The notes under the pieces were generated by a model, which searched no databases, was not told the origin of the DNA, and worked only from the letters and a program-made list of their open reading frames with translations. DNA of 45,860 bases from NCBI GenBank assembly GCA_029233965.1, contig JARGOP010000038.1, forward strand, positions 1-45,860, in the 5' to 3' direction. This document shows positions 1,117-13,372 of the stretch, one piece after another (position 1 is the first letter of the stretch; every line of letters begins with the position of its first letter). The position numbers were made by a program, and so were the translations under genes. The stretch is from Verrucomicrobiales bacterium. GTDB taxonomy: Bacteria > Verrucomicrobiota > Verrucomicrobiia > Verrucomicrobiales > DEV007.

Positions 1117-3033
1117 ATGTATCTGGTCGTCCTCAATCTTGAAAACCCTGCCGAGCGGGTGATCATCAAGCCTGTGGAGGGACGTCCCGTCAGGATCGGG
1201 AGGAAACCGGAAAGCCTGCCCGAGGAAGCCGTCGATCTCATTCGCCTGAGATGGAATGATCGCCTCGTGAGCCGCAACCACTGTCAGGCAGATCGCATCG
1301 GGGACACCCTTCAGTTGAAGCGACTGCCGGCACTCACGGGGCGGGCCAAACCGAACGCTCTCTACACCTTTACACCACCACGGGACCGTATAACGCTGGA
1401 GGAACCGGTCAGTCTTGCTCCCGGGGAAGGGGCAATCATCGGAGCGAAAGGGCAAACCGCGATTGTCTGGCTGAACGAAGTCGAGGATCTTGAGGCCGAC
1501 CTGATTCAATATTGCGATTCTCTTGAGGCAAGTCATGATGACTACGAGAACAATCCGCTCTCGAATCAAAACTACGACGAGGTCGAGCAACTCGATGAAT
1601 ACTCCCTCCGCCTGCAGTTGAAATTGCTTCAGAAAGACCTCCCGGAGCAGGTGCTGACGAACTGGAATGATAGCAGAGATCTCTTTACCCGCGCCTCGGT
1701 CTTTCTCGGCAACGCCCTCCCGGGCCAGAAAGGAGTCAGCTCTGTTTTTCTCAGTCTCGAAAAAACTGATGATGACATCTCATACGAACTGTTGAATCCG
1801 GACCCCCTTGCTCGAGCCGACTTCCGCCCGAGCCGGACGTTATTGCAACGCATCGACCTGGAAAAGCTCGACCACACCAAGGTGTATGTCTGGTCCCTGA
1901 AAGAACATCAGCGCGTCTTCCGCGCCGAAAGTCTCGGCGGACAGGTCGACTGGGTCATTATCATTCCGGTGGCACGACTCGACGAATCCGCCGAGATCCA
2001 TCGCGACGCGACGGGGCACCCGATCTTTCTTTATCTCGAGACCCGGCAGGCTTCGGAAGCAGCCGCTGCCTCTTTCGTCCCTTTCCTGCGATTGATCACC
2101 TCGCTTGTCGCAAGCCTCCTTTCCGCCCGTGCCGAGCAAAAACTCCAGGATCAGATGGCGGCCTATTTTTCTCCCGGCCTCCGGAAATTGATGCAACGTC
2201 AGGATCAGTCGGTCCTCGAACCGGCCATGGTCGATTGCACCGTGATGTTCGCCGATCGCCGGGGTCACTCACGCATGCTGGAAGTGGCGAAAAGCGACGC
2301 TGAAATTCTCGACCGGCTCGAGGAGAACCAGAAGGTGGTGGGACTCATCACCGACTCCGTTTTCAACAGCAACGGCGTCATCACCGATTTTGCGGGTGAC
2401 GGAGCCCTCGGGCTCTGGGGATGGCCGAACCTCGGTGACCGCGCCAGCACTCACGCCCTCGAGGCAGTCGAAGCGGCCGAGGCAATCATCCATCAACTCG
2501 CCAACCGGGTCGTTTATGAGGAGGAGCACCAACGCCATATGGCTGCGGTGCGGATCGGCATCAGCACGGGCCGAATCGCGGTGGGAAAGACCGGGCCGGC
2601 CTCGCAATGGCACATCAGCGTTTTCGGCAGCGTCGCCAATCTCGGAGCGCGCCTCGAACGGATCGCGAAGGAGTTCCGGATTCCGCTGCTGATCTCGGAT
2701 GACACCTTCCAGAGAATCCAGGGCAAGGGCGATCGCCGCTTCCGGAAGCTTTGTCTGATTCGTCCGGCCGGCTTTGCAGAGAGCTACTCCATTTACGAGT
2801 TGGTTCTGCCACAGTCCGTCGGCGGCTCCGGAATCACGGACGGGAACATCAAGATTTATGAGGAGGCGCTCGAACTCTTTGTATCGAGACGCTGGAGGGC
2901 GACGCTCGACCTACTCGACACCCTTCCCGGAGAGGACCCGCCCACCTCCTGGCTCCGGGAGAAAACGCTCCAGTTCCGGGCGAAACCACCGGAGCCGGAC
3001 TGGGGCGGCGAGATTCAGAGCTTCAGTAAATAG
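1117..3033 (+). CDS. FHA-GAF-class III nucleotide cyclase
   Basis: A 638-residue soluble signalling protein. Residues about 20-110 look like an FHA phosphothreonine-binding domain (RIGRK, then VSRNHCQ). Residues about 150-350 form a GAF-like sensor region, and residues about 370-560 a class III cyclase catalytic domain. Both metal-binding Asp positions are visible (VMFADRRG near 380, FAGDGALGLWG near 427), as is the transition-state Asn/Arg pair (VANLGARLE). The residue three before the GD, normally Lys in adenylate cyclases, is Asp here, and the Asp/Thr partner is Ser (HISVFG), so substrate choice (ATP, GTP or other) is uncertain. The last 70 residues are a short tail of unknown role. It lies 15 bases upstream of a receptor kinase, so the FHA domain may read that kinase's phosphorylation; this is inference. 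Confidence 0.85.
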   Translation: MYLVVLNLENPAERVIIKPVEGRPVRIGRKPESLPEEAVDLIRLRWNDRLVSRNHCQADRIGDTLQLKRLPALTGRAKPNALYTFTPPRDRITLEEPVSLAPGEGAIIGAKGQTAIVWLNEVEDLEADLIQYCDSLEASHDDYENNPLSNQNYDEVEQLDEYSLRLQLKLLQKDLPEQVLTNWNDSRDLFTRASVFLGNALPGQKGVSSVFLSLEKTDDDISYELLNPDPLARADFRPSRTLLQRIDLEKLDHTKVYVWSLKEHQRVFRAESLGGQVDWVIIIPVARLDESAEIHRDATGHPIFLYLETRQASEAAAASFVPFLRLITSLVASLLSARAEQKLQDQMAAYFSPGLRKLMQRQDQSVLEPAMVDCTVMFADRRGHSRMLEVAKSDAEILDRLEENQKVVGLITDSVFNSNGVITDFAGDGALGLWGWPNLGDRASTHALEAVEAAEAIIHQLANRVVYEEEHQRHMAAVRIGISTGRIAVGKTGPASQWHISVFGSVANLGARLERIAKEFRIPLLISDDTFQRIQGKGDRRFRKLCLIRPAGFAESYSIYELVLPQSVGGSGITDGNIKIYEEALELFVSRRWRATLDLLDTLPGEDPPTSWLREKTLQFRAKPPEPDWGGEIQSFSK

Positions 3034-3048
3034 AAACCTTTCGCAACC

Positions 3049-5238
3049 TTGGCCGAAGAAGAACCCATCAAGATCAAAGACTATCAGATCCACTTCCCTC
3101 CTCTCGGGGAAGGGGCCTACGGTTGTGTCTATCGGGCGACCTATCGGGGAATTTCGGATCGTGCCCTGAAGATCTTCCGCCCCGGCGCGGTCGACCTGTC
3201 GACGATGGCACGAGAGTTGGAGAAAATTTCCCGGGTCGCCGAGCATCAGGGCATCGTAACCTTGCACGATTTTGATCTGCTCAACGAGCCACCCTACTAC
3301 GCGATGGGTCTGCACGCTGACCCGTCCTCCGATGGCACATGGGAAACCCGAACCCTTGAGAAACTCTGCGGGCACATTGATCAGCGCGAAGGCTGGAGAC
3401 TGATCCGCGACATTGCTGACGCCCTTGCCTACCTGCACCGCAACCAGATTATCCACTGTGACGTCAAACCGTCTAACATTCTCCTTACCGACGAAACTCC
3501 GTTTCACATTAAGATCTGCGACTTTGGTCAAAGCCGGGGGCTTGCCGCAGAGGCATTCGAGCCGGTGGGGACGCCCCTCTACGCCAGTCCGGAACAGTTG
3601 CGTGATCCCCGCAACTCCGCAGACGGCCGCGGCTTTCGCTGGGACGTCTATAGCTTTGGCGTCCTTTCCTACAAACTACTGACCGGCGAACTGCCCCGGC
3701 TCCAGGCTTTCGCGAGCGCCGAGAGCGCCAGTTTTGATCCTGACTCCACTTTATCTGAAGCCACTCTCGAAGCCACCCTCGCAGAAACAGGCAACGCCAT
3801 CGACGGCGAACAGCTCGCGACAATGACGGAAGCCGTCGAGGAAATCAGCTGGCCGGGTGACTTCTACGTTCCCAGCGCTCACAAGGAATTGATTGAGCAA
3901 TGCCTCAAACTGAATCCGGAAGAACGTCCTGCGGACATGCGCGAAGTCTGGAGCCGGATGCAACAACTCGACCAGCAAACCGTGGTCAAACGGGCGCGAA
4001 GACTGAACACCATTTTTGCCACTTTGTTAGTCATCGCGATCTGGGCTTCCGGCTTTGCCTTCATCCAGGCCCAGAAGGCAAAAAAGGCGACTGAGGAAGC
4101 CATGCTCGCTTCCGAGACTTCGCTTCAAAATGCCGGCGCCGCGATCGACCTCACGAATCTGATCGTGGATGAATTGAACAAGGGAGACATTTCCGGAAAC
4201 GGTGCGGAGCGGCTCTACAGTATCGTTGCGGAAAATGCGAAGATCTTTCTGGAGAACCGTTTTCAGAATCAGGGTGCTTCGACGCGAATTCTCAAATTCT
4301 CAGCTCAAACCGCCTCTCTCAGCGGCAGGCAGGAACTTGAGCAGGGCAATCTGGAGGAAGCATTAAAAAACTACACCAGTGCCTACGAGATCCGTTCTCA
4401 GTTGGCCGAAGATGCGGACCCGTCCGGTGATCTCGCGGTGCGGGCTTCGCGCGATCTCATGGAAATCGGAAAGATTCACGAGCTCCAGAGCAACTACGAG
4501 GAAGCCGAGACCGCTTACACGAAAGCGCTTGAGTGGAGATCCCAGACTTCGAGCGGAGGGGGCGTTTTTTCTCTGCAGCAGGTGCGGGAACTCGCCATCA
4601 CTTACAAAGCCCTCGCGCGGGTGCAGTCTCTGAAAGGAGAGGTCGGTGATGCGCTGAACACCCTGGACGAGATTTTCTCGATTGTGAATGCCAGGATCAA
4701 TGAAAGCACGGCGCTTGAAGCTTCTCAGTTCACGATGGAAGCGATCCGAATTTTGGAGCAAAAAGGCGGGATCGAATACAATTCGAAGAACCTCGACGGA
4801 GCGGCCCGCACTCAGCAGGACATTCTTGTTTTTGCCAATTCACTGGCTGAGGCACCACCGAGCGTGGCCGAAGAGGCCCGCGACAGCTACGTGGAGGCCG
4901 TCAACGCTCTCGGTCGCATCCAGCACGATCAGGCCCAACCTGAGGCTGCCCTCACTCTCTTCCGCGAGGAGATCAAGATCCGGGAACAGATCACCCGTCT
5001 GAGGCCCTATGATCCCGAGGAGAAAGTTGCTCTCGCCGATGCCTTTGCCATGGCCGCGACCTGCCTCGAGGAAGAGCTCGAAATCGCAACCTCCCGCTCT
5101 CTGGCGATCCTGTATCTGGAACAGTCGATTTCTCTGATTGGCCGCCTCCCTTCCGAAGTTCGGAACCGTAGCGATGTTCAGGCAAAGGTGATCGAATACA
5201 ACGAGAATCTTTCCAGCATTCTCGAGATGGAAGAGTGA
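3049..5238 (+). CDS. Transmembrane Ser/Thr protein kinase with TPR sensor region
   Basis: A 729-residue Hanks-type kinase. Residues 1-285 hold the kinase fold: glycine loop LGEGAYGCVYRA, ATP Lys in ALKIF, catalytic loop HCDVKPSNILL (an HRD variant keeping the Asp), CDFGQSRG, and GTPLYASPEQL. The catalytic residues are all present, so activity is expected. A membrane helix follows at about 318-343 (IFATLLVIAIWASGFAFI). The rest is helical, with TPR-like units such as LEEALKNYTSAYEIRSQLAE and YEEAETAYTKALEWRSQ, probably periplasmic. The start is TTG at 3049, 15 bases after the cyclase stop; I see no clear Shine-Dalgarno, and the next in-frame Met would remove the glycine loop. It is paralogous to the protein at 31990-34443, sharing the DMREV motif after the kinase domain. 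It is convergent with the next gene with no gap. Confidence 0.9.
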   Translation: MAEEEPIKIKDYQIHFPPLGEGAYGCVYRATYRGISDRALKIFRPGAVDLSTMARELEKISRVAEHQGIVTLHDFDLLNEPPYYAMGLHADPSSDGTWETRTLEKLCGHIDQREGWRLIRDIADALAYLHRNQIIHCDVKPSNILLTDETPFHIKICDFGQSRGLAAEAFEPVGTPLYASPEQLRDPRNSADGRGFRWDVYSFGVLSYKLLTGELPRLQAFASAESASFDPDSTLSEATLEATLAETGNAIDGEQLATMTEAVEEISWPGDFYVPSAHKELIEQCLKLNPEERPADMREVWSRMQQLDQQTVVKRARRLNTIFATLLVIAIWASGFAFIQAQKAKKATEEAMLASETSLQNAGAAIDLTNLIVDELNKGDISGNGAERLYSIVAENAKIFLENRFQNQGASTRILKFSAQTASLSGRQELEQGNLEEALKNYTSAYEIRSQLAEDADPSGDLAVRASRDLMEIGKIHELQSNYEEAETAYTKALEWRSQTSSGGGVFSLQQVRELAITYKALARVQSLKGEVGDALNTLDEIFSIVNARINESTALEASQFTMEAIRILEQKGGIEYNSKNLDGAARTQQDILVFANSLAEAPPSVAEEARDSYVEAVNALGRIQHDQAQPEAALTLFREEIKIREQITRLRPYDPEEKVALADAFAMAATCLEEELEIATSRSLAILYLEQSISLIGRLPSEVRNRSDVQAKVIEYNENLSSILEMEE

Positions 5239-5790
5239 TCAGAGAACCCCGATCGCGCTTTGCCACGCGGCGACTTCCCCTTCGATCCCCCATTTCCCCA
5301 GTCCGGATACGATGTCTTTTTCGGAAGGTTCGAGGATACCCTCCGTTTCGATCTGCAGTTCGTCAGCCGGCATCTCCGGGAATACCTGACAGGCATACCA
5401 CCAGCAGGCCCAGGCCCTCCAGGATCTCACTTCCTTCCGCGGCTCGACCATTCTTGTCGCGAGGTGTTGAAAATGACGACGGGGATTCCCGATGAAGTCC
5501 CCCTTCCGATGATGCTTCATGACCCAGACCATCGCGGCATACGGCAGCGGCCATTCCCCGAGAACAGGCTCATGCCCTTTGAGATCCGCCGAAAAGGCGC
5601 GGTTTAATAGCAGCATCGACTGCGCGGGGAGTCCCTGAAGCCAAAGCGACTGCGCACATTCGAGAGCGAGCAAATAAAATGACTCCCCCCGGTCTTTGCC
5701 GCACTGCTTCATGCTCGCGGCGCGCAGAGTTGGTTTCACCGCCGGCAGGTAGGGACAGACTCTCCGTTCATCGAGATGCGATGAGATCAT
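5239..5790 (-). CDS. Conserved-looking hypothetical protein, last gene of the solute operon
   Basis: I do not recognise this 183-residue protein. It has no signal peptide, membrane helix or metal motif that I can name. It is Trp- and Met-rich in the middle (WVMKHHRKGDF, RAWACWWYACQVF) and looks helical and soluble. I chose the ATG at 5790 because its ATGA overlaps the TGA of the upstream LOG-family gene, matching the pattern elsewhere in this operon; the frame is open a little further up. It is the last gene of the minus-strand run beginning at 11952 and meets the kinase gene end to end, with no room for a separate terminator. Its role is unknown; co-transcription with the solute genes is the only clue. 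Confidence 0.7.
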   Translation of the reverse strand: MISSHLDERRVCPYLPAVKPTLRAASMKQCGKDRGESFYLLALECAQSLWLQGLPAQSMLLLNRAFSADLKGHEPVLGEWPLPYAAMVWVMKHHRKGDFIGNPRRHFQHLATRMVEPRKEVRSWRAWACWWYACQVFPEMPADELQIETEGILEPSEKDIVSGLGKWGIEGEVAAWQSAIGVL

Positions 5791-6922
5791 GATGCAACGC
5801 CTGCCGATCCAAAGGGTTTCGGCTCTCTCTCCTCGATCCACTTCACGACCTCCGCGGGGTCATCCGTGAGCCCTAACATACATTCATACTGGCACCCTTT
5901 TGCGAGTCGTTGCAGTGTTTCAACCAACCCGGTTTGCGGCCCGTAGCGATCCTCTCCCAGGAAAATCATCGGACTGACAAAGTCGAAGGTTCCATAGTGA
6001 TTCCGGGCCGCATCCATGAAAATTTCCTGCGTCGTGCCGACGCTGCCCGGAGCATAGACGACGCCGTATTTCGCAATCGCGAAGAGCCCGTCCTCGCGAA
6101 GTCCGTTGCTGAAATACTTGGCGACGTATGTCGAGAACTGGTTGCTCGGCTCATGCCCGTAGAACCAGGTCGGGATCGCAAGACTTGAGGCTCCCTCAGG
6201 GTGCCATTCGGCACCGTTGCGGCGGTCTCATGGAAACCTTCGTCCGAATACACGGGGGCCTTTGCCAGCTCTTCGAAAGCACGCTCCAAAAAGTCATCCG
6301 GCGCGTTCGAGATCCACGCACCGAGATTGGCCGCCTCCATGATTCCCGGATCACCACCACTGGCAATGAAATAACCACGCCGGGTCAACTCTCTCGAGAT
6401 CTCAATGACCTTACGAAAATAAGGATCGGTCCGTGAGGTGCCGTGCCCGCCCATGATCGCGACAACCTTCTTGGCCCCGTCACCCTCGACCCTTCCCTCA
6501 AGTAAATCGGAAAGCCCGTCGTCGATCGCATGATCGTGGAGACGCTGACAAAGTGACTCGAGGAGATTGGGCTTGTGCCGACCGTGATTGACAAAATGCT
6601 CGTAAATCTGCCAGTCGAGAGACTGATCCCGTTCCTCACTCCACCCTTCCGTCAACTCGTCGCGGGTATACAGAGTCGGCCGATAGGGATTGTAGGGAAT
6701 TCCCGGCAAACGGGGAAAGATCAGTGCCCCTCCCTCCCGAAGTCGTTCCTGATAGGCAAGCGAGGGAAACCGACAACCGAGGAAGACAGAACCGGACAGT
6801 TTGACCTTCGACCAGTCGACTTCGATTTCCCCGAGGTCCAACCCCTGAACGACACAATCAAAGAAATGGTGCTCCCGCTCCAGAAACGAGACCAGTTGAT
6901 CAATTTCGTGAACTTCCCTCAT
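5787..6922 (-). pseudogene. LOG-family (lysine decarboxylase-like) nucleotide-binding protein, interrupted by a frameshift
   Basis: LOG-family proteins bind nucleotides in a Rossmann fold; many are cytokinin-riboside 5'-monophosphate phosphoribohydrolases, others are unassigned. The upstream frame (from ATG 6922) gives about 140 residues without a named domain, then IMGGHGTSR and SGGDPGIMEAANLGAW, the LOG signature. Near 6188 that frame loses homology, while the minus-one frame continues it with LAIPTWFYGHEPSNQF and YAPGSVGTTQEIFMDAARNH, to a TGA at 5787. Together they form a full LOG protein of about 378 residues, so the break is consistent with loss of one base (REP then SSLAIPTW). It starts with an ATGA overlap after the CBM9-like gene and ends with one before the next gene. 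A sequencing error, a recent mutation or slippage could each explain it. The family call is secure. Confidence 0.8.
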
Positions 6923-7527
6923 GAATCTTCCACCAGTTCAAACTTTCCGAACGAAGAGGGCACATGAAAATCCGGTTTCCGGGTCCCGGGGTCAATCCAG
7001 CTGATCCAGTTCTCCTCAATCCCTCCTTCATCAACATGAGAAAACTCAGCCCGATACACTCCGGTCGTCATTTGATTATCAACAAGCAGATTCAAATCCC
7101 GAAGTTCATCGAGCTGTATTTGCCCGCTCACGACATAACCGGTGTCATGAATCCGCCCCGAAAAAATAAGACTGGAGAAACTCCAATTCGGATCGATCTG
7201 CCGATAGGTAGTCGCCGCATAGTCATAGACACGTCCCGCCGGGTCCATTTCCGCTCCATAGTAGGGCTTCTCCAGATCCGGTGACGAAGCAAAGAACAGT
7301 TCCACGCGATCAGACCCCAGGGCCGCTTTTCCCGAATCCGCCGCCTCCCCCAGAACCAGATCGTGATCTTCGACCTCAAACCGGAAAGCGAGCGCCCTTT
7401 CGTTCCAGACCGCCCGGAAAGAAGTCGCCGGACACTCCCGCGACAACCAGGGAAAAGAGAAATCCGATAGTCGCTCCCCTTTTGAAAGGTCCAACCCCCC
7501 GTTATATTTAACCTGATAAACACTCAT
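6919..7527 (-). CDS. CBM9-like carbohydrate-binding domain protein
   Basis: A 202-residue protein that resembles a stand-alone family-9-type carbohydrate-binding module: the N-terminal FRAVWNERALAFRFEVED strand pattern, then GSDRVELFFASSPD, a Tyr/Asp-rich centre (YYGAEMDPAGRVYDY), and a C-terminal Trp-containing strand (ENWISWIDPGT). Modules of this type usually sit on xylanases or follow secreted enzymes and bind sugar ends. Here there is no catalytic partner and no signal peptide (it begins MSVYQVKYNG), so it is predicted to be cytoplasmic, which is odd for the family. ATG 7527 overlaps the HAD stop by four bases, and its own stop overlaps the LOG start. Within this operon it may bind a sugar osmolyte or precursor; that is inference. 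Confidence 0.7.
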   Translation of the reverse strand: MSVYQVKYNGGLDLSKGERLSDFSFPWLSRECPATSFRAVWNERALAFRFEVEDHDLVLGEAADSGKAALGSDRVELFFASSPDLEKPYYGAEMDPAGRVYDYAATTYRQIDPNWSFSSLIFSGRIHDTGYVVSGQIQLDELRDLNLLVDNQMTTGVYRAEFSHVDEGGIEENWISWIDPGTRKPDFHVPSSFGKFELVEDS

Positions 7528-8390
7528 TCGTTAAGTCTAAGGACTTCAGGCAATTGAATCAACTCCGTCAAGACGACATCGGCTTTCCCGCAAGCTTCCT
7601 CAACCGTCATGGAGCCGGTTCGGAGGCTCCGCTGATCTCCGGCAAAGAGCCCGGTTCGGAACCCGACTTCAACCGCCGGCTCGATATCTTTGACCAAATC
7701 ATTGCCGATGTAGAGAACCTCCTGAGACTGAATGCCCAGCGCCTCCGCCTCCCGCAAAGCCTTTTCGAAGAGTTGCCGGGATGGCTTTCCAAAACCCTCC
7801 CGATACGAGTAAACGGAAAGAGTAGGCTCAAAATCAGCACCCGAAAGATTGATCCCGGACACCCCTTCCACAACTGCCCCGGTGTAGAACTGGGCATTGG
7901 AAATGATCCCGAGGGGAAAGGAGTTTTTTCTCAAGGTTCGAATCACCTTGCCTGCTCCGGGCATCTCCCAACACGGATTCACCGCGCACTCATAGGCCAG
8001 AGCAGCGCTTTCGATCCGTTCCCCCGGAAGTTTCAGTTGCGAAGCAATTGACTTCCACACTTCGCGAATCTCCACTTCGGGAAACTCCACCCCCTGAGAC
8101 CGCAGGTCATTCTGCCTGCGCAGAATCTCTGCTCGATAGCATTCCAATCCCGTCTCGACTTCATCGTCTGTGCCTCCGCCCCCCAGCTTGCGAATCGCTT
8201 CCGCCATTCCCTTCGCTGATTCAGATTCACTCACGAGGCTGATATCACCGGCAGCGGAGATGATGAGCGTTCCGTAGATATCAAAAATGACCAAACGAAT
8301 CCCCTCGACCGGAGTGAGACGCGACACCACTCCGGTCGGCACCGGCTCCCGAGGAGTCATCCGCGCTTTCACGTTTTCAGCAGGAGTCAT
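7524..8390 (-). CDS. HAD-superfamily hydrolase
   Basis: A HAD protein of about 288 residues with a helical C1-type cap. Motif I is VIFDIYGTLI, motif II is GIISNAQFYTG, the Lys motif lies near FGKPSRQLFEKAL, and motif IV is VLYIGNDLVKDIEPAVEVG, followed by GFRTGLFAGDQ. The nucleophile Asp is present, but the residue two after it is Tyr, where phosphatases normally have Asp; DxY is best known from haloacid dehalogenases. The position right after GpgS and a glycosyltransferase suggests a phosphatase for a glycosyl-3-phosphoglycerate, but the Tyr and the C1-like cap (known mannosyl-3-phosphoglycerate phosphatases are C2-capped) argue for caution. I use ATG 8390; a TTG at 8399 overlaps the upstream stop and is the alternative. 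Confidence 0.82.
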   Translation of the reverse strand: MTPAENVKARMTPREPVPTGVVSRLTPVEGIRLVIFDIYGTLIISAAGDISLVSESESAKGMAEAIRKLGGGGTDDEVETGLECYRAEILRRQNDLRSQGVEFPEVEIREVWKSIASQLKLPGERIESAALAYECAVNPCWEMPGAGKVIRTLRKNSFPLGIISNAQFYTGAVVEGVSGINLSGADFEPTLSVYSYREGFGKPSRQLFEKALREAEALGIQSQEVLYIGNDLVKDIEPAVEVGFRTGLFAGDQRSLRTGSMTVEEACGKADVVLTELIQLPEVLRLNE

Positions 8391-8395
8391 CGCCG

Positions 8396-9865
8396 TCAAT
8401 TTCTCAAGAGATTCAAACGTGCCGGATTCAGGAAGCGGGCGAGAACTTTATCCGTCGGAAGATAGGATACTTTCCCGACGTGTCCGCTCAAGACACTGTG
8501 ATAAAGCCCGGCGAGCCTTGCCCCGTAGCTCTCCGGGCTGTAGGCCCGGCGAATGACCTCGCGATGATGACAGATCGTTTCCTCATCGGCCATTTCCATC
8601 GACGGGATCGAAACTGACTCCAGTAACGAGGGATCTGCTTTCAGCTTCCTCAGGACCTGCAACTGCATCGCTTCGTTGAGAACGCCGAAATCGATCCTCC
8701 CTTTCTTGATCCACGCCTTCAAGGTTTGCTTGACTGCATTCTTCGGAAGGACGGTGTCATAGGCCAGATAGCTCCGCCTCAACATCGACTCGACCGCTTC
8801 TTTCAACTCTGCTTTTTCCAGCCATTCCACCGGGAAATCGATGCGCCGGTAGAGCTGGTCGAGCTGAAGTTGGTTCTCCGAAAAATCCCGGGTGATCTCC
8901 GGCAAGTCACGCCCCACGACACTCTTTCCCGCAGTCCATGGTTCCAGGAAGGCGAGACCAAAGCCTTCGCCGATACTGGTCGTGACGACAAAGTCGGACC
9001 ATCCTAACAGGTCAAGAAACAAATACTCGCCGTTGTCGGCAATGCCGAGCCGGACGGGGAGATCCAGTTCTTTGACCGCGGAACACCAATCGTCATGAAC
9101 CGGTTTCCACTCCGGGTTCTCGGGGCTGAGCGTTGTCGCAAAATCAATCTCATCCCCATAGATCAGGGCGAGGAGGAGAAGTTCCCCGATGTTCTTCCGC
9201 CGAATCCCGCGGGTTGGATAGAGAGCGAACTTCTTTCCTTTCGAGAAAGGTCGCTCCGCCGGGCCGACCTCCGTTTTCAACTCCATGATCGCATTCGGAA
9301 TCACATGAAGGTTGGAGCGGTTGATCCCGGCTTTTTTCAAAAAATCGTGATCCCGCTGATTGATCGTCGCATAGTGAATCTGCTTTGCGGTAGGATAGAG
9401 CGTCGATTCGAAGCTGGATTCGGAATCGAAAAAGGAACGCTGCGTGGTGTAGTTTCCCGGTCGTCCGTCTTCTGCGAAATCGTGCAGCTGCAGGACGATA
9501 CGGGCACCCTCCTCCGCCAGTTCTTTCACCACCGTCGGAATGAGAACATTTTTGGCGAGCGTTGGATTGTGAAAGTGCCAGACATCGGGCAGGGAACCGA
9601 AGTGCTCCTTCGCCTCTTTCTTGAGTGCTTCCACGAGACTGCCGGCGATCACCGAATTCCCGGTCTTCCGGTAGTTCAGACCGGGGACGACCCGGACATC
9701 TTCCTGGTCCGCATCGGCACGGGGCGCCTCCCCTGACAAAATCAGAACCCGGTTGCCACCCTTCTTGATAACGGACCTGGCCGACTCGATGACACGCGTC
9801 ACACCGCCTCGTTTGAGGTGGTAGTGAACAATTGCGATTTTCAGCTCCTTACGATTTTCTGCCAT
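8396..9865 (-). CDS. GT4-type glycosyltransferase, candidate mannosyltransferase of the solute operon
   Basis: A 489-residue GT-B glycosyltransferase. The N-terminal IAIVHYHLKRGGVTRVIESA is the acceptor-side glycine-rich start. The donor domain has FALYPTRGIRRKNIGELLLL and the E-x7-E motif in SIGEGFGLAFLEPW, typical of retaining GT4 enzymes using nucleotide sugars. The start is ATG 9865 (MAENRKELKIAIVHY); upstream in-frame codons lack homology. It overlaps the 3' end of gpgS by 17 bases, so translation is probably coupled. In Petrotoga, to my recollection, gpgS works with MggA, which adds mannose to glucosyl-3-phosphoglycerate, and with the phosphatase MggB. This gene sits where an MggA would be. 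The fold is certain; sugar donor and acceptor are inferred. Confidence 0.85.
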   Translation of the reverse strand: MAENRKELKIAIVHYHLKRGGVTRVIESARSVIKKGGNRVLILSGEAPRADADQEDVRVVPGLNYRKTGNSVIAGSLVEALKKEAKEHFGSLPDVWHFHNPTLAKNVLIPTVVKELAEEGARIVLQLHDFAEDGRPGNYTTQRSFFDSESSFESTLYPTAKQIHYATINQRDHDFLKKAGINRSNLHVIPNAIMELKTEVGPAERPFSKGKKFALYPTRGIRRKNIGELLLLALIYGDEIDFATTLSPENPEWKPVHDDWCSAVKELDLPVRLGIADNGEYLFLDLLGWSDFVVTTSIGEGFGLAFLEPWTAGKSVVGRDLPEITRDFSENQLQLDQLYRRIDFPVEWLEKAELKEAVESMLRRSYLAYDTVLPKNAVKQTLKAWIKKGRIDFGVLNEAMQLQVLRKLKADPSLLESVSIPSMEMADEETICHHREVIRRAYSPESYGARLAGLYHSVLSGHVGKVSYLPTDKVLARFLNPARLNLLRN

Positions 9866-10841
9866 GGCGTTTTCGATATTCCGGAAGGGTAATGATGGGA
9901 GGGCGCTCCTCCTCAACAATTTCCCGGTTCAAGGCTTCGTAGCGCCTGCCTTCAGCCTGAAGTTGGCGGAAGATTTGCGGCAGCTCAGGCATTCCTTCGA
10001 CGATGTCGTAGTGCTTGATCCGGTTGAGGAAGCTTTGGAGAATTCCGAACGACATCTTCCCGAGATCAATCGTCGACTGGTTCCGGTGGACGCGACGATC
10101 CAGATCCGTCTGCGCAAAGGCATCAAGCCCGTGTGCCTGATAGACGTCGATCAGGTGGGACGTCTCAACTCCGTATCCAATCGGAAAAGGGAGCCGCTCC
10201 AGCGTCTCCCGCCGCACCGCATACTCACCGGAGAGTGGTTGCATCAGCGCCGACAGCTCCGGAAAAAACATGGAGAACAGCGGCCGCACCAGAATCTCGG
10301 TGACCCGTCCTCCACCGGAAGGCCGAATCCCTCCCGAGACCGCAAGCGGTCGATCATAGAATGCTTTCACATATTGAATCTCCGGGCGATAAATGAGCGG
10401 AGCAACAAGCCCACTTACGAACTTCGGGTGGATGTTTTTGATGTCCGCATCCACATAGCAAATGATATCGCCCTTGAGCTGGTGAATGGCCTTCCAGAGA
10501 TTCTCCCCTTTTCCTGACTTGAAGCCATGCTGAGGCAGGATCTCGCTGGACAGGTAGGTGTCGGCTCCGTAGCTCGCCGCAATTGCGAGGGTGTCATCGG
10601 TCGAACCGGAATCAATCACCGCCAGCTCGTCGACAAGCGGGTAGCGGTCCATCAGCTCACTCTTGAAAACGATGACTTCTTTTCCAATCGTCTTCTCCTC
10701 GTTCAGGGTTGGAATACAGAGACTGATCGTGAGACCCGATTGCTCCTTCGCCTTCACGAGCGCCTGAAGATCCCAGAACTCGCTGTGGTGGTAGGTGTTT
10801 GTGCCCAGCCACTTTTCGATTTTTTGATCGAGCTTCGACAT
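9849..10841 (-). CDS. gpgS: Glucosyl-3-phosphoglycerate synthase
   Basis: GpgS (family GT81) joins glucose from a nucleotide sugar (UDP-, GDP- or ADP-glucose depending on organism) to 3-phosphoglycerate, the first step to glucosylglycerate. The 330-residue product has the expected length and the full motif set: IPTLNEEKTIG, VIDSGSTDDT, the phosphate-binding SGKGENLWKAI, the metal-binding VDADI, SGGGRVTEILVRPL, LSGEYAVRRETLERLPF and IGYGVETSHLID, plus the acidic/His region VHRNQS. These match the mycobacterial and thermophile enzymes along the whole length. ATG 10841 lies one base after the stop of the M20-like gene. It anchors the interpretation of the operon as compatible-solute synthesis. 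Confidence 0.94.
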   Translation of the reverse strand: MSKLDQKIEKWLGTNTYHHSEFWDLQALVKAKEQSGLTISLCIPTLNEEKTIGKEVIVFKSELMDRYPLVDELAVIDSGSTDDTLAIAASYGADTYLSSEILPQHGFKSGKGENLWKAIHQLKGDIICYVDADIKNIHPKFVSGLVAPLIYRPEIQYVKAFYDRPLAVSGGIRPSGGGRVTEILVRPLFSMFFPELSALMQPLSGEYAVRRETLERLPFPIGYGVETSHLIDVYQAHGLDAFAQTDLDRRVHRNQSTIDLGKMSFGILQSFLNRIKHYDIVEGMPELPQIFRQLQAEGRRYEALNREIVEEERPPIITLPEYRKRHGRKS

Positions 10842-10842
10842 G

Positions 10843-11952
10843 TCAGAGAGGAGCGTAGTCGGTTCGGTCCATGTGGCGAAGCACCGCGAGGAGATGAGCG
10901 ATCCCGTCGAAGAGCGGTTCCAGTTGGATCGTTTCGTTCGGGGAATGCCGATTCTCCCCCCGCGTCAGCCCGAGCGTGAGGGAGGGAATACGATGGGTGA
11001 GAAGCGCCGCCAGTTCCGAAATGCTTGGCTCTTCTTTTGGTTCCACGTCCAATGCCTCCATCGCGGTCCGGGCGAATTTCACGAGGGGGTGGGACCCGCC
11101 GAGATTTCCGGGGCTCCGCCGGGCGATGATCTCGATCCCGATCGATAGATCCTCTTTCCCTTCTCCAATCCCATTGATCGAGGAACGAATCCGCCCCTCC
11201 ATTTCGGCGACCCTGAAAGCATCCTCGCTCCGAATTTCAAAACAGATCCGACCGGTCGACGGCGGCACATTGTAACCGGAGCCGGCATTGACCGCACCGA
11301 GAAGAATTCGCACCCCGGGAAAGGAATCCCGATTCAAACGGGTCAATTCGCTGACAATTTCCTGAACCATGGCGATCACTCCTGTTGTTAGGGTGTCAGG
11401 ATCATTTCCCGGCCCGCTCAGCTTCACCTCGATTTCCCCCCGGGCCATGCCGAGACTGGCGAAGCTCAAGCGACCGAGGTTCATTCCTTCGAGGCACAGC
11501 GCGGACTCAAATTCACGATCCGTGTTTTCAAGAAAGAACCTCATGCCTCCGAGGTCTCCCCGGCCGAAGCTCTTTGTCGTGCCCAGAAGAATCAGATTCG
11601 ATTCCAGCTTGATGTTGAGGCGCTCCAGAATGAGCGGAAGGGTGGCGAGGGTCGCAACCCCGAGGCCATTGTCAGCAATTCCCCGCGCCTTCATCTTTCC
11701 GACCCGGACAGAAACGGTATGGTCGTCCGCTTCAGGCCACACCTTATCGACATGAGCTGCAAGAAGGAGATTGCGCTGAGGATTTCTTCCGGGGAGCACT
11801 GCCGCGATATTCCCCGCCTGATCGAAGGCGATGTCGTTCAGGCCACTCTCCGTAAAACGGTCGCTCAGAAAGCGTGTCAGCATCCGCTCGTCCCCGGTCG
11901 GGGCCGGAATTTCACCGGCCATAACGATGTTTGCATACAGAATCTGACGCAA
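10843..11952 (-). CDS. M20-family metallopeptidase homologue lacking the catalytic Glu pair
   Basis: About 369 residues with the two-domain M20 plan. AAHVDKVW supplies the first metal His and Asp, and GIADNGLGVATL the bridging Asp region. LCLEGMNLG is the later acidic motif, a dimerisation domain follows at about 170-285, and the final metal His is in ENRHSPNETI. Where active M20 enzymes have EE before GxGDLxG, this protein reads GTTKSFGRGDLGGMR, with Ser-Phe at the positions of the catalytic base and a metal ligand; the reading frame there is clean. It is thus probably not a normal hydrolase. The start is uncertain: TTG 11952 is used, but in-frame protein-like sequence continues upstream (REELLLYQADLRGL) without an ATG or GTG. 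It is the first gene of the operon, one base before gpgS. Confidence 0.82.
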   Translation of the reverse strand: MRQILYANIVMAGEIPAPTGDERMLTRFLSDRFTESGLNDIAFDQAGNIAAVLPGRNPQRNLLLAAHVDKVWPEADDHTVSVRVGKMKARGIADNGLGVATLATLPLILERLNIKLESNLILLGTTKSFGRGDLGGMRFFLENTDREFESALCLEGMNLGRLSFASLGMARGEIEVKLSGPGNDPDTLTTGVIAMVQEIVSELTRLNRDSFPGVRILLGAVNAGSGYNVPPSTGRICFEIRSEDAFRVAEMEGRIRSSINGIGEGKEDLSIGIEIIARRSPGNLGGSHPLVKFARTAMEALDVEPKEEPSISELAALLTHRIPSLTLGLTRGENRHSPNETIQLEPLFDGIAHLLAVLRHMDRTDYAPL

Positions 11953-12056
11953 TCCCCGTAAATCTGCCTGATACAGGAGAAGCTCTTCCCTGATCGCCGA
12001 ATGTTCCTCTGTGTTCCTCGTTTTCGTGCTCCCAACCTAGAGTTCTTCCCCGTTGA

Positions 12057-12070
12057 GAAAAGCTCTTTTC
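12057..12070. promoter_or_regulatory. Inverted repeat in the divergent solute-gene region
   Basis: GAAAAG-CT-CTTTTC has perfect 6-base arms around a 2-base centre. It lies between the divergent M20/gpgS operon (start about 11952) and the GT4 gene (start 12140). Its centre is 27 bases from the centre of the dyad at 12083-12098. It is either an operator half or part of a 5' leader stem; no bound regulator is known. Confidence 0.35.
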
Positions 12071-12082
12071 ACTGGTAAAAAC

Positions 12083-12098
12083 GTGAATAATTACTCAC
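12083..12098. promoter_or_regulatory. 16-base near-palindrome, putative operator
   Basis: GTGAATAATTACTCAC matches its own reverse complement at 14 of 16 positions, with the AT-rich core TAATTA. It lies 41 bases before the GT4 start codon at 12140 and is the most symmetric AT-rich element I found in the GC-rich 11953-12139 gap. The remainder of the gap shows no further gene and no clear -35/-10 pair that I would defend. The position suggests shared control of both divergent units. Confidence 0.45.
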
Positions 12099-12139
12099 CT
12101 GACAGCGATGGCCCGAATTCTGCAATTCCCCGGTTTGAA

Positions 12140-13372
12140 ATGAGATTTGGATTCGTATCAACCCGCTTTGCCGGAACCGACGGCGTCTCGCTTGAGTCGG
12201 CAAAGTGGGCTGAGGTCCTCGAAACATCCGGGCACGAAGTTTATTGGTTCTGCGGTCTCAGCGACAGGCCCGAAGCCGTGACGAAAGTCGTGCCCGAAGC
12301 TCATTTTGAACATCCAAAAATTGCCGCTCTCCATGACGCGATCTGGGGGAAAGACATGCTTTCCGCGGCGACCGGGCTAGGGGTGGCGGCGATGCGAAAA
12401 CGTCTCAGCGGGGAAATCACGAAGTTTATCGCCGCTCGTGAAATCGAGGTGCTCGTGCCCCAGAATGCGCTCACCATTCCGATGAATATCCCTCTCGGCC
12501 TCGCTCTCGCCGATGTGATCCGCGAGAGCAGAATTCCGACCCTGGCACACCACCATGATTTCCATTGGGAACGCGACCGCTTCACCGGCGAAGCGGCAAA
12601 GCCCTGGTTGGAGGAGGCCTTCCCCCCGGTGCTTCCGTCGATCCGTCATGTCGTGATCAACAGTGCCGCACAGAGGGAACTTCAGGCTCGCCTCTCTCTT
12701 GATTCGACCCTTGTTCCGAACGTGATGAATTTCCCGGCCCCGCCTCCTCCGATCGATGAGTTCAGCTCTGATCTCAGGGAGGTGATCGGTCTGCAGGAAT
12801 CAGACCGGCTCATCCTGCAACCGACCCGTATCGTTCCGCGCAAAGGAATCGAACTCTCGATTGAATTGCTCTCGCGCTTGAGTGATTCCCGGAACAAACT
12901 CGTTCTTTCTCACCACTCGGGAGACGAAGGGCACGCCTACCGTGATGAACTGAGGAGGCTGGCCGATTCAAAAAATGTCGATCTCCGGCTCGTGGGAAAC
13001 CTCATCTCAACCGAACGCTCAATCGCGACCGGGGGAAAGAAGCGCTATACCCTGCAGGATCTCTATCCCTTCGCCGATTTCGTCACTTTCCCCAGTCTCT
13101 ATGAAGGATTCGGAAATGCATTGCTCGAAGCGATTTACTTCGGAAAGCCGCTTCTCGTGAATCGCTATTCCGTGTTTCAGGAGGATATCGAACCGGTCGG
13201 ACTCAATTTAATTTTGATCGATGGAGTCATCACCGATGAAACTGTCTCCGCGGCTCATTCGTGGCTGACTTCGCCCCCTGACCCGGACCGCAACCGTGAG
13301 ATCGCGTCAGAGCACTTCGGATACACCGTGCTGCGTGAACGCCTTTCGAGGCTCGTCGATGGACTACTCTGA
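12140..13372 (+). CDS. GT4-type glycosyltransferase, divergent partner of the gpgS operon
   Basis: A 410-residue GT-B enzyme. The N-terminus MRFGFVSTRFAGTDGVSLES is a classic acceptor-domain start, so I choose ATG 12140 over the TTG at 12053. HHHDFHWERDRF near residue 140 is a striking acceptor-domain motif. LQPTRIVPRKGIELSIELL opens the donor domain, and FPSLYEGFGNALLEAIYFGKPLL carries the E-x7-E donor motif. Its position next to gpgS makes a mannosylglucosylglycerate synthase (MggS-like, GDP-mannose plus glucosylglycerate) a reasonable guess, but sequence alone does not fix the substrate. It ends 12 bases from the convergent secreted-protein gene. Confidence 0.85.
   Translation: MRFGFVSTRFAGTDGVSLESAKWAEVLETSGHEVYWFCGLSDRPEAVTKVVPEAHFEHPKIAALHDAIWGKDMLSAATGLGVAAMRKRLSGEITKFIAAREIEVLVPQNALTIPMNIPLGLALADVIRESRIPTLAHHHDFHWERDRFTGEAAKPWLEEAFPPVLPSIRHVVINSAAQRELQARLSLDSTLVPNVMNFPAPPPPIDEFSSDLREVIGLQESDRLILQPTRIVPRKGIELSIELLSRLSDSRNKLVLSHHSGDEGHAYRDELRRLADSKNVDLRLVGNLISTERSIATGGKKRYTLQDLYPFADFVTFPSLYEGFGNALLEAIYFGKPLLVNRYSVFQEDIEPVGLNLILIDGVITDETVSAAHSWLTSPPDPDRNREIASEHFGYTVLRERLSRLVDGLL

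Follow-up and report, generated by a model that had tools for sequence, protein, structure and literature searches.

Glycosylglycerates serve as compatible solutes and protect against stress; reports of them come from scattered organisms. For Petrotoga mobilis, two routes to mannosylglucosylglycerate, one by GpgS, MggA and MggB and one by MggS, are said to have been described by Fernandes in 2010, and Cunha reportedly carried out a study of the mannosylglucosylglycerate enzymes of Rhodopirellula baltica in 2013. Here, we analysed a stretch of 45,860 nucleotides from a Verrucomicrobiales bacterium (contig JARGOP010000038.1, hereafter the window), in which a gpgS gene, encoding glucosyl-3-phosphoglycerate synthase, stands within a series of seven minus-strand genes beside a divergent glycosyltransferase gene. 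Two sources bear on this locus from outside. In an excerpt of PMC3694870, mannosylglucosylglycerate is reported as a solute of R. baltica, a member of the Planctomycetota, and an excerpt of PMC7178133 gives a (T/S)ETN motif together with a glutamate in loop A as marks of glucosylglycerate phosphorylase.

The locus is real and widespread. Biochemically it belongs to a known type, here in a variant gene arrangement with an unexplained M20-like partner. The most likely product of the gene cluster is a small compound of sugar and glycerate, one of those with which bacteria counter salt or nitrogen stress. We assign a probability of about 0.6 to the reading that the transcript carrying the M20-like, GpgS, GT4a and HAD genes, together with the divergent gene GT4s, represents a glycosylglycerate solute locus in the form that it takes in Verrucomicrobiota. 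Such a recurring two-transcript locus would make Verrucomicrobiota a large new source of glycosylglycerate pathways.

The locus and its recurrence across Verrucomicrobiota

The window corresponds to contig C115 in a genome of 4.83 Mb and 151 contigs, with a completeness of about 96 %. The seven minus-strand genes are transcribed in the order M20-like, gpgS, GT4a, HAD, CBM9-like, LOG-like and x183 (an open reading frame, ORF, of 183 residues), and the second GT4 gene, GT4s, is divergent from them on the plus strand:

10843-11952, minus strand: M20-like protein, 369 residues from a TTG codon (start uncertain), directly upstream of gpgS
9849-10841, minus strand: GpgS, glucosyl-3-phosphoglycerate synthase, 330 residues, NCBIfam NF010496
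8396-9865, minus strand: GT4a, candidate second-sugar glycosyltransferase, 489 residues, GT-B fold, with its ATG at 9865 within gpgS
7524-8399, minus strand: HAD-family protein, phosphatase candidate, TTG start with an alternative ATG at 8390, DxY in motif I
6919-7527, minus strand: CBM9-like stand-alone protein, 202 residues, Pfam PF06452
5787-6922, minus strand: LOG-like gene, frame broken near 6,210, with two pieces that match the halves of the gene of relatives
5239-5790, minus strand: x183, all-helical conserved protein, 183 residues
12053-13372, plus strand: GT4s, MggS-family homologue (homology to NF041101), whose conserved region begins at ATG 12140, the likely true start

The tight linkage of the minus-strand genes claimed by the first-pass annotation (overlaps and gaps of 1-5 bases) was borne out in the DNA, where the junctions are one 1-base gap and otherwise overlaps of 4-17 bases; the HAD start at 8390 would give a 5-base gap. 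The order GpgS-GT4-HAD was likewise confirmed and recurs partly in distant families. The identity of gpgS is upheld as well, its product scoring 388.5 bits against NF010496, beyond the curated equivalog cut-off of 262, with D131 and D133 conserved.

Conservation was assessed in near relatives by tblastn against 57 fetched gpgS loci, in which some misses are contig ends, and phylum-wide in a single draw of 387 Verrucomicrobiota genomes, with thresholds of E <= 1e-40 for GT4a and E <= 1e-45 for GT4s-type proteins. Apart from the window, 28 loci came from the same genus; the M20-like gene was found in 27 of these, GT4a in 25, HAD in 24, CBM9 in 22, x183 in 20, and LOG and GT4s in 8 each. Seven loci from other genera of the family gave 5 for the M20-like gene, 6 for GT4a, 5 for HAD and 2 for GT4s, while CBM9, LOG and x183 were each found beside GpgS in 0 of these 7. 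The 20 gpgS loci of a second family (f2) yielded the M20-like gene once, GT4a nine times and HAD nine times. Five named relatives with GT4a are Verrucomicrobiales metagenome-assembled genomes. It is therefore not the case that gpgS occurs without these neighbours in all relatives, since several of them are kept beside it. As for the conservation of the seven-gene order, the core (M20-like, GpgS and GT4a, often with HAD) recurs, whereas CBM9, LOG and x183 are bound to the genus in their position beside gpgS. Given this recurrence in relatives, the gene arrangement exceeds chance.

In the phylum draw, GpgS occurs in 70 of the 387 genomes (69 over the cut-off) and GT4a also in 70; both are present in 66, one alone in 4 and 4, and neither in 313, GT4a forming a distinct group that tracks GpgS across the genomes. 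The other ground for rejection named by the first-pass annotation, both GT4 proteins falling in unrelated polysaccharide clades, finds no support in this pattern. The two genes are non-adjacent in 14 of the 66 (four at 5.7-9.6 kb, four at more than 50 kb and six on different contigs), so that their association does not rest on adjacency alone. Twenty distant GT4a loci were inspected, of which 17 could be drawn: nine have M20-like, GpgS and GT4a in a row, two have GpgS and GT4a only, and six have no GpgS nearby; two of the three that could not be drawn show the same row by coordinates. GT4s-type proteins were detected in 52 genomes, 46 of these with GpgS. Two single-contig genomes of about 0.9 Mb (L167 and G243) keep GpgS and GT4a, the latter in two pieces in one of them, as if the pathway had been retained and were now decaying in reduced genomes.

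An M20-like protein upstream of GpgS

The M20-like protein matches Pfam PF01546 at 48.3 bits (cut-off 24.6) and aligns with the poly(aspartic acid) hydrolase 7ljh (E 5e-23), with homology over residues 8-345. The catalytic Glu pair, which we take to be the rule in M20 enzymes and whose position was set here by the 7ljh alignment, is replaced at its first position by Ser128 and at its second by Phe129. Its absence, noted by the first-pass annotation in the window's protein, extends family-wide, no Glu being present at 127-130 in any of 44 aligned sequences (one truncated sequence, L046, was omitted). Among the same 44, Ser128 is kept in 42, H67 in 41, D69 in 44, D94 in 43, E155 in 41 and H336 in 38; 35 sequences combine all four putative metal ligands. 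The roles of these residues as ligands and base are presumably those of M20 enzymes. Since the Glu pair is absent, hydrolysis by the usual mechanism is unlikely, and since the metal-site residues and Ser128 are kept, the active site does not appear to be drifting freely.

With a profile (A4) built from 23 of the 44 sequences, 55 of the 70 GpgS genomes gave a match to the M20-like protein of at least 366 bits. In 55 of these 55, its gene immediately precedes gpgS in the same orientation, with gaps between the matched ranges of -8 to 325 bases. It stays there even where GT4a is absent or far off. At the same level, it was found in 0 of the 4 genomes with GT4a and without GpgS, and in 0 of 55 GpgS-less controls, a set skewed to the window's own class (45 carry x183, 6 a GT4s-type protein, and 4 are others); the best score among the controls was 174.5 bits, and three matches had E <= 1e-30. 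At the level of gene content, a role as dedicated partner of GpgS is thus well supported. The first-pass annotation had set this gene outside any described pathway: that part stands, inasmuch as no matching pathway was found, but the protein is a widespread partner of GpgS rather than a passenger. No description of an M20-like partner of GpgS was found in the literature searched; the string 'M20' in PMC2674218 belongs to a DOI, a 'peptidase' mentioned in an excerpt of PMC2874817 is an unrelated S49 domain, and an excerpt of PMC11009771 makes no mention of Verrucomicrobiota or GpgS. A peptidase-family protein without its catalytic base beside GpgS in every matched genome suggests unfamiliar chemistry or control at the entry step. 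Most likely, it would act without the usual M20 hydrolysis, as a ligand-binding or metal-binding regulator or a scaffold.

The kept metal site, with the Glu pair gone, also speaks for a rather unlikely alternative, namely that the M20-like protein is an enzyme with changed chemistry (e.g. transfer of an acyl or amide group to the sugar or the glycerate) and that the product is a new glycosylglycerate derivative. Family f2, which has the M20-like gene in one of 20 gpgS loci, would fit, as a GNAT-type protein directly follows GpgS in seven of the 20 (one of the seven was tested against Pfam and gave PF00583), and a GNAT homologue precedes GT4a, far from gpgS, in one further f2 genome. This alternation of M20 and GNAT may nevertheless be a coincidence, four GpgS genomes outside f2 also lack the M20-like gene (GNAT was sought in f2 only), and we know of no M20 protein with demonstrated activity in the absence of the general base. 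At individual loci, a GNAT acetyltransferase stands between GpgS and GT4a in f2 (L068:7901-8344) and before a distant GT4a (L168), the M20-like gene being missing. A broader proposal, which we hold only tentatively, is that an M20-fold protein has been repurposed and is inherited together with GpgS across the phylum as its specific partner, and that it performs or gates a step absent from the pathways described so far (ligand-dependent control of GpgS, for example, or the acylation or amidation of the glycosylglycerate); in one family, this role would have passed to a GNAT acetyltransferase. The M20-like partner, along with the acetyltransferase near GpgS in an M20-poor family, is the new and unexplained part of the locus.

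Glycosyltransferases, HAD protein and the proposed pathway

GT4a matches Pfam PF13439 at 35.1 bits (cut-off 28.5), and E-x7-E is present in 38 of 38 rows of its alignment (A2: the window and 37 of the 41 relatives found, L040, L046, L047 and L092 being left out), which together with the GT-B fold identifies a GT4 glycosyltransferase. The fold was read from a predicted model with a mean predicted local distance difference test (pLDDT) score of 92, whose best solved match is 7mi0 (Z 24.4, root-mean-square deviation (rmsd) 3.4, 347 residues aligned), many solved GT-B enzymes matching at Z about 19-24. Structure singles out neither a donor nor an acceptor; the nearest solved folds, at 10-18 % identity, bear titles that refer to GDP-mannose, UDP-glucose and N-acetylglucosamine enzymes alike. 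By its position, GT4a is a candidate MggA.

The structural neighbours of GT4a include GlgM and the methylmannose polysaccharide mannosyltransferase, and this is one of the points in favour of a different product, in which the locus would make the primer of a longer intracellular polysaccharide and GT4a would be the first elongating enzyme. In mycobacteria, GpgS starts methylglucose lipopolysaccharide (PMC4555173, in excerpt) by a route that involves the glucosyltransferase Rv3032 and acyltransferases (PMC2674218, in excerpt), and the GNAT acetyltransferase near GpgS in f2 would fit such a scheme. We consider it improbable nonetheless: no further gene recurs with the core across genera (as judged from ORF clusters around gpgS, with neighbours partly scanned against family libraries), and both GT4s and the phosphorylase of relatives are akin to enzymes of small glycosylglycerates.

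That kinship is seen on the divergent side. GT4s matches the MggS model NF041101 at 222.9 bits (E 6e-66), the next best family reaching 39.3 bits. Of the 46 genomes that carry GT4s and the M20-like gene, 33 have the two in divergent orientation no more than 3 kb apart. The gene that commonly comes next on the GT4s strand in relatives encodes a sucrose-phosphorylase-like protein. A phosphorylase profile search, which covered the GpgS genomes, gave a match (E <= 1e-100) in 46 of the 70, of which 41 also carry GT4s, in same-strand adjacency in 35 of the 41. TETN and the loop-A Glu were present in 7 of the 7 phosphorylases whose motifs were checked (six distant, one from the window's genus). Because a phosphorylase with the diagnostic marks and GT4s stand beside the locus in relatives, it is placed in glucosylglycerate metabolism on separate grounds. 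In one locus (L040), GT4s is represented by short pieces with a stop, which suggests loss within the genus or an assembly error. A second MggS-family group (L180-L185) scores 330-450 bits, nearer to NF041101 than GT4s, and two of its genomes (G241 and G517) are without GpgS.

The HAD protein matches Pfam PF00702 at 50.6 bits (cut-off 26.4). Its later motifs are well kept, with Lys205 and Asp238 each in 45 of 45 aligned rows and D234 in 42. In HAD phosphatases, motif I as a rule reads DxD, and the motifs after it carry conserved Lys and acidic residues. The protein may be the pathway phosphatase, and on sequence grounds it is the weakest link in a reading as MggB. An MPGP-type phosphatase (TIGR01486) was not found in the window genome by a search that did not extend to the histidine-phosphatase GpgP type.

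A glycosylglycerate pathway at this locus is well supported by the predicted gene products, and the one proposed by the first-pass annotation is plausible, with the MggA and MggB assignments remaining those of candidates. As a GpgS family member, the first enzyme would couple glucose to 3-phosphoglycerate; GT4a would then put a second hexose on the phosphorylated intermediate or on glucosylglycerate, and a phosphatase, perhaps the HAD protein, would take off the phosphate. By its homology, GT4s could be an alternative, MggS-like transferase working directly on glucosylglycerate, which in many relatives, not in the window genome, would be recycled by the phosphorylase encoded after GT4s, as the diagnostic residues suggest. 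The locus would offer a test system for the balance of two sugar-adding routes and a recycling phosphorylase.

Several observations weigh against this reading. The phylum counts ignore shared ancestry, and the 55 GpgS-less controls are no random draw, a further 258 GpgS-less genomes of the draw lying outside the comparison. Among the 70 GpgS genomes, 15 are without the M20-like gene (11 in f2 and 4 elsewhere), 4 are without GT4a and 24 are without GT4s; in f2, no GT4a is nearby in 11 of the 20 gpgS loci. The HAD protein has DxY instead of DxD as motif I in 44 of 45 aligned rows (the remaining row has a gap), and 6 of the 20 distant GT4a loci gave a homologue, a count that may be low because ORFs were called crudely and the threshold was strict; its role as phosphatase is weakened by both the motif and this patchy detection. 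GT4s falls far under the MggS equivalog cut-off of 640 bits, which was passed in 0 of the 387 genomes, and so the earlier description of it as MggS-like holds as homology to the family and not at equivalog level. Within the genus it was found in just 8 of 28 loci, with an internal stop in one and as a short fragment in another. In the window genome, which is about 96 % complete, no glucosylglycerate phosphorylase was found with the profile at E <= 1e-100; the single GH13 match there was rejected as a phosphorylase, having 35 % identity over residues 88-347 and no ETN. With no phosphorylase in this genome and GT4s patchy in the genus, the divergent side seems dispensable in the window genome.

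Downstream genes and comparison with known systems

The CBM9-like protein matches PF06452 (CBM9_1) at 57.2 bits (cut-off 23.4). Found in 22 of 28 same-genus loci and in 0 of 7 in other genera of the family, CBM9 is a genus-level addition, as is LOG.

The first-pass annotation listed a LOG-family protein among the operon products; the reading frame of this gene is broken. The ORF that begins at 6922 ends at 5966 in a tail without relation to the gene, whose C-terminal half continues in a different frame. A base near 6,210 that is present in 8 of 8 relatives in which the gene was found is missing from the window; all eight are open there (373-378 residues). As the break is joined by an altered motif (GGGPG reads GGDPG in the window), decay and sequencing error are both possible. 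LOG phosphoribohydrolases usually carry the motif PGGxGTxxE; the relatives have PGSAGTTQE in 8 of 8 instead of the PGG form and the window gene is broken, so that membership of this enzyme class is not supported. Against Pfam LDcluster4, the LOG-like protein scored 24.9 bits, below the cut-off of 26.3.

The x183 protein has 53 invariant residues in 19 sequences (the alignments omit one truncated, then one masked sequence) and gave no Pfam or NCBIfam match. It occurs in 65 of the 387 phylum genomes with one match per genome, 19 with gpgS and 46 without, and in the 18 other genomes of the draw that carry both genes, the two are on separate contigs or at distances of hundreds of kb. No other window genes were found near x183 in 20 fetched loci, where the crude ORF caller missed x183 itself in 8. 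The predicted model is all-helical (pLDDT 93); Foldseek returned no match at E <= 0.001, and looser structural comparison paired it mostly with TPR-like and other helical proteins, at best with Z 6.6, rmsd 3.2 and 72 residues aligned, a likeness that may reflect no more than a common helical arrangement. Six f4 genomes have an open frame of 352-480 residues around x183, perhaps an extension or fusion.

The four extra genes, grouped together as passengers by the first-pass annotation, are therefore unlike each other: the M20-like gene is a widespread GpgS partner, CBM9 and LOG belong to the genus level, and x183 is spread phylum-wide. Three of them (CBM9, LOG and x183) are probably incidental and would be later or incidental additions to the pathway. 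Their close coupling in the window, and the presence of CBM9 and x183 in most same-genus loci (22 and 20 of 28), could be taken to mean that all seven genes form one functional pathway in which CBM9, LOG and x183 sense or recycle the product. This is highly improbable given that x183 is without gpgS in 46 of its 65 genomes and that LOG is found in 8 of 28 loci and broken in the window; the seven-gene pathway was rejected because none of the three stands beside gpgS in the seven loci from other genera. Beyond x183, a cyclase-like gene and a Ser/Thr kinase gene with a TPR-like tail (both identified by eye, 1117-5238) are convergent to the operon, and hold the same place in many same-genus loci.

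Compared with solved M20 proteins, 7ljh is the nearest by sequence and shares the first metal-site residues with the M20-like protein, which differs from it in having Ser and a mostly hydrophobic residue at the aligned Glu pair. Rhodopirellula baltica stands for a related phylum with reports of such solutes, and the excerpt of PMC3694870 mentions no M20-like partner. As in the glucosylglycerate phosphorylase neighbourhoods described in the excerpt of PMC7178133, relatives of the window carry proteins with (T/S)ETN and the loop-A Glu beside GT4s and near gpgS, in contrast to the window's own genome, where no phosphorylase was found. Petrotoga mobilis differs from the window, which has an M20-like partner, a DxY HAD protein and a GT4s below the MggS equivalog cut-off, and GT4a resembles MggA in gene order. 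Like P. mobilis, the window has GpgS followed by GT4-like and HAD-like genes, with a second, MggS-family GT4 beside them.

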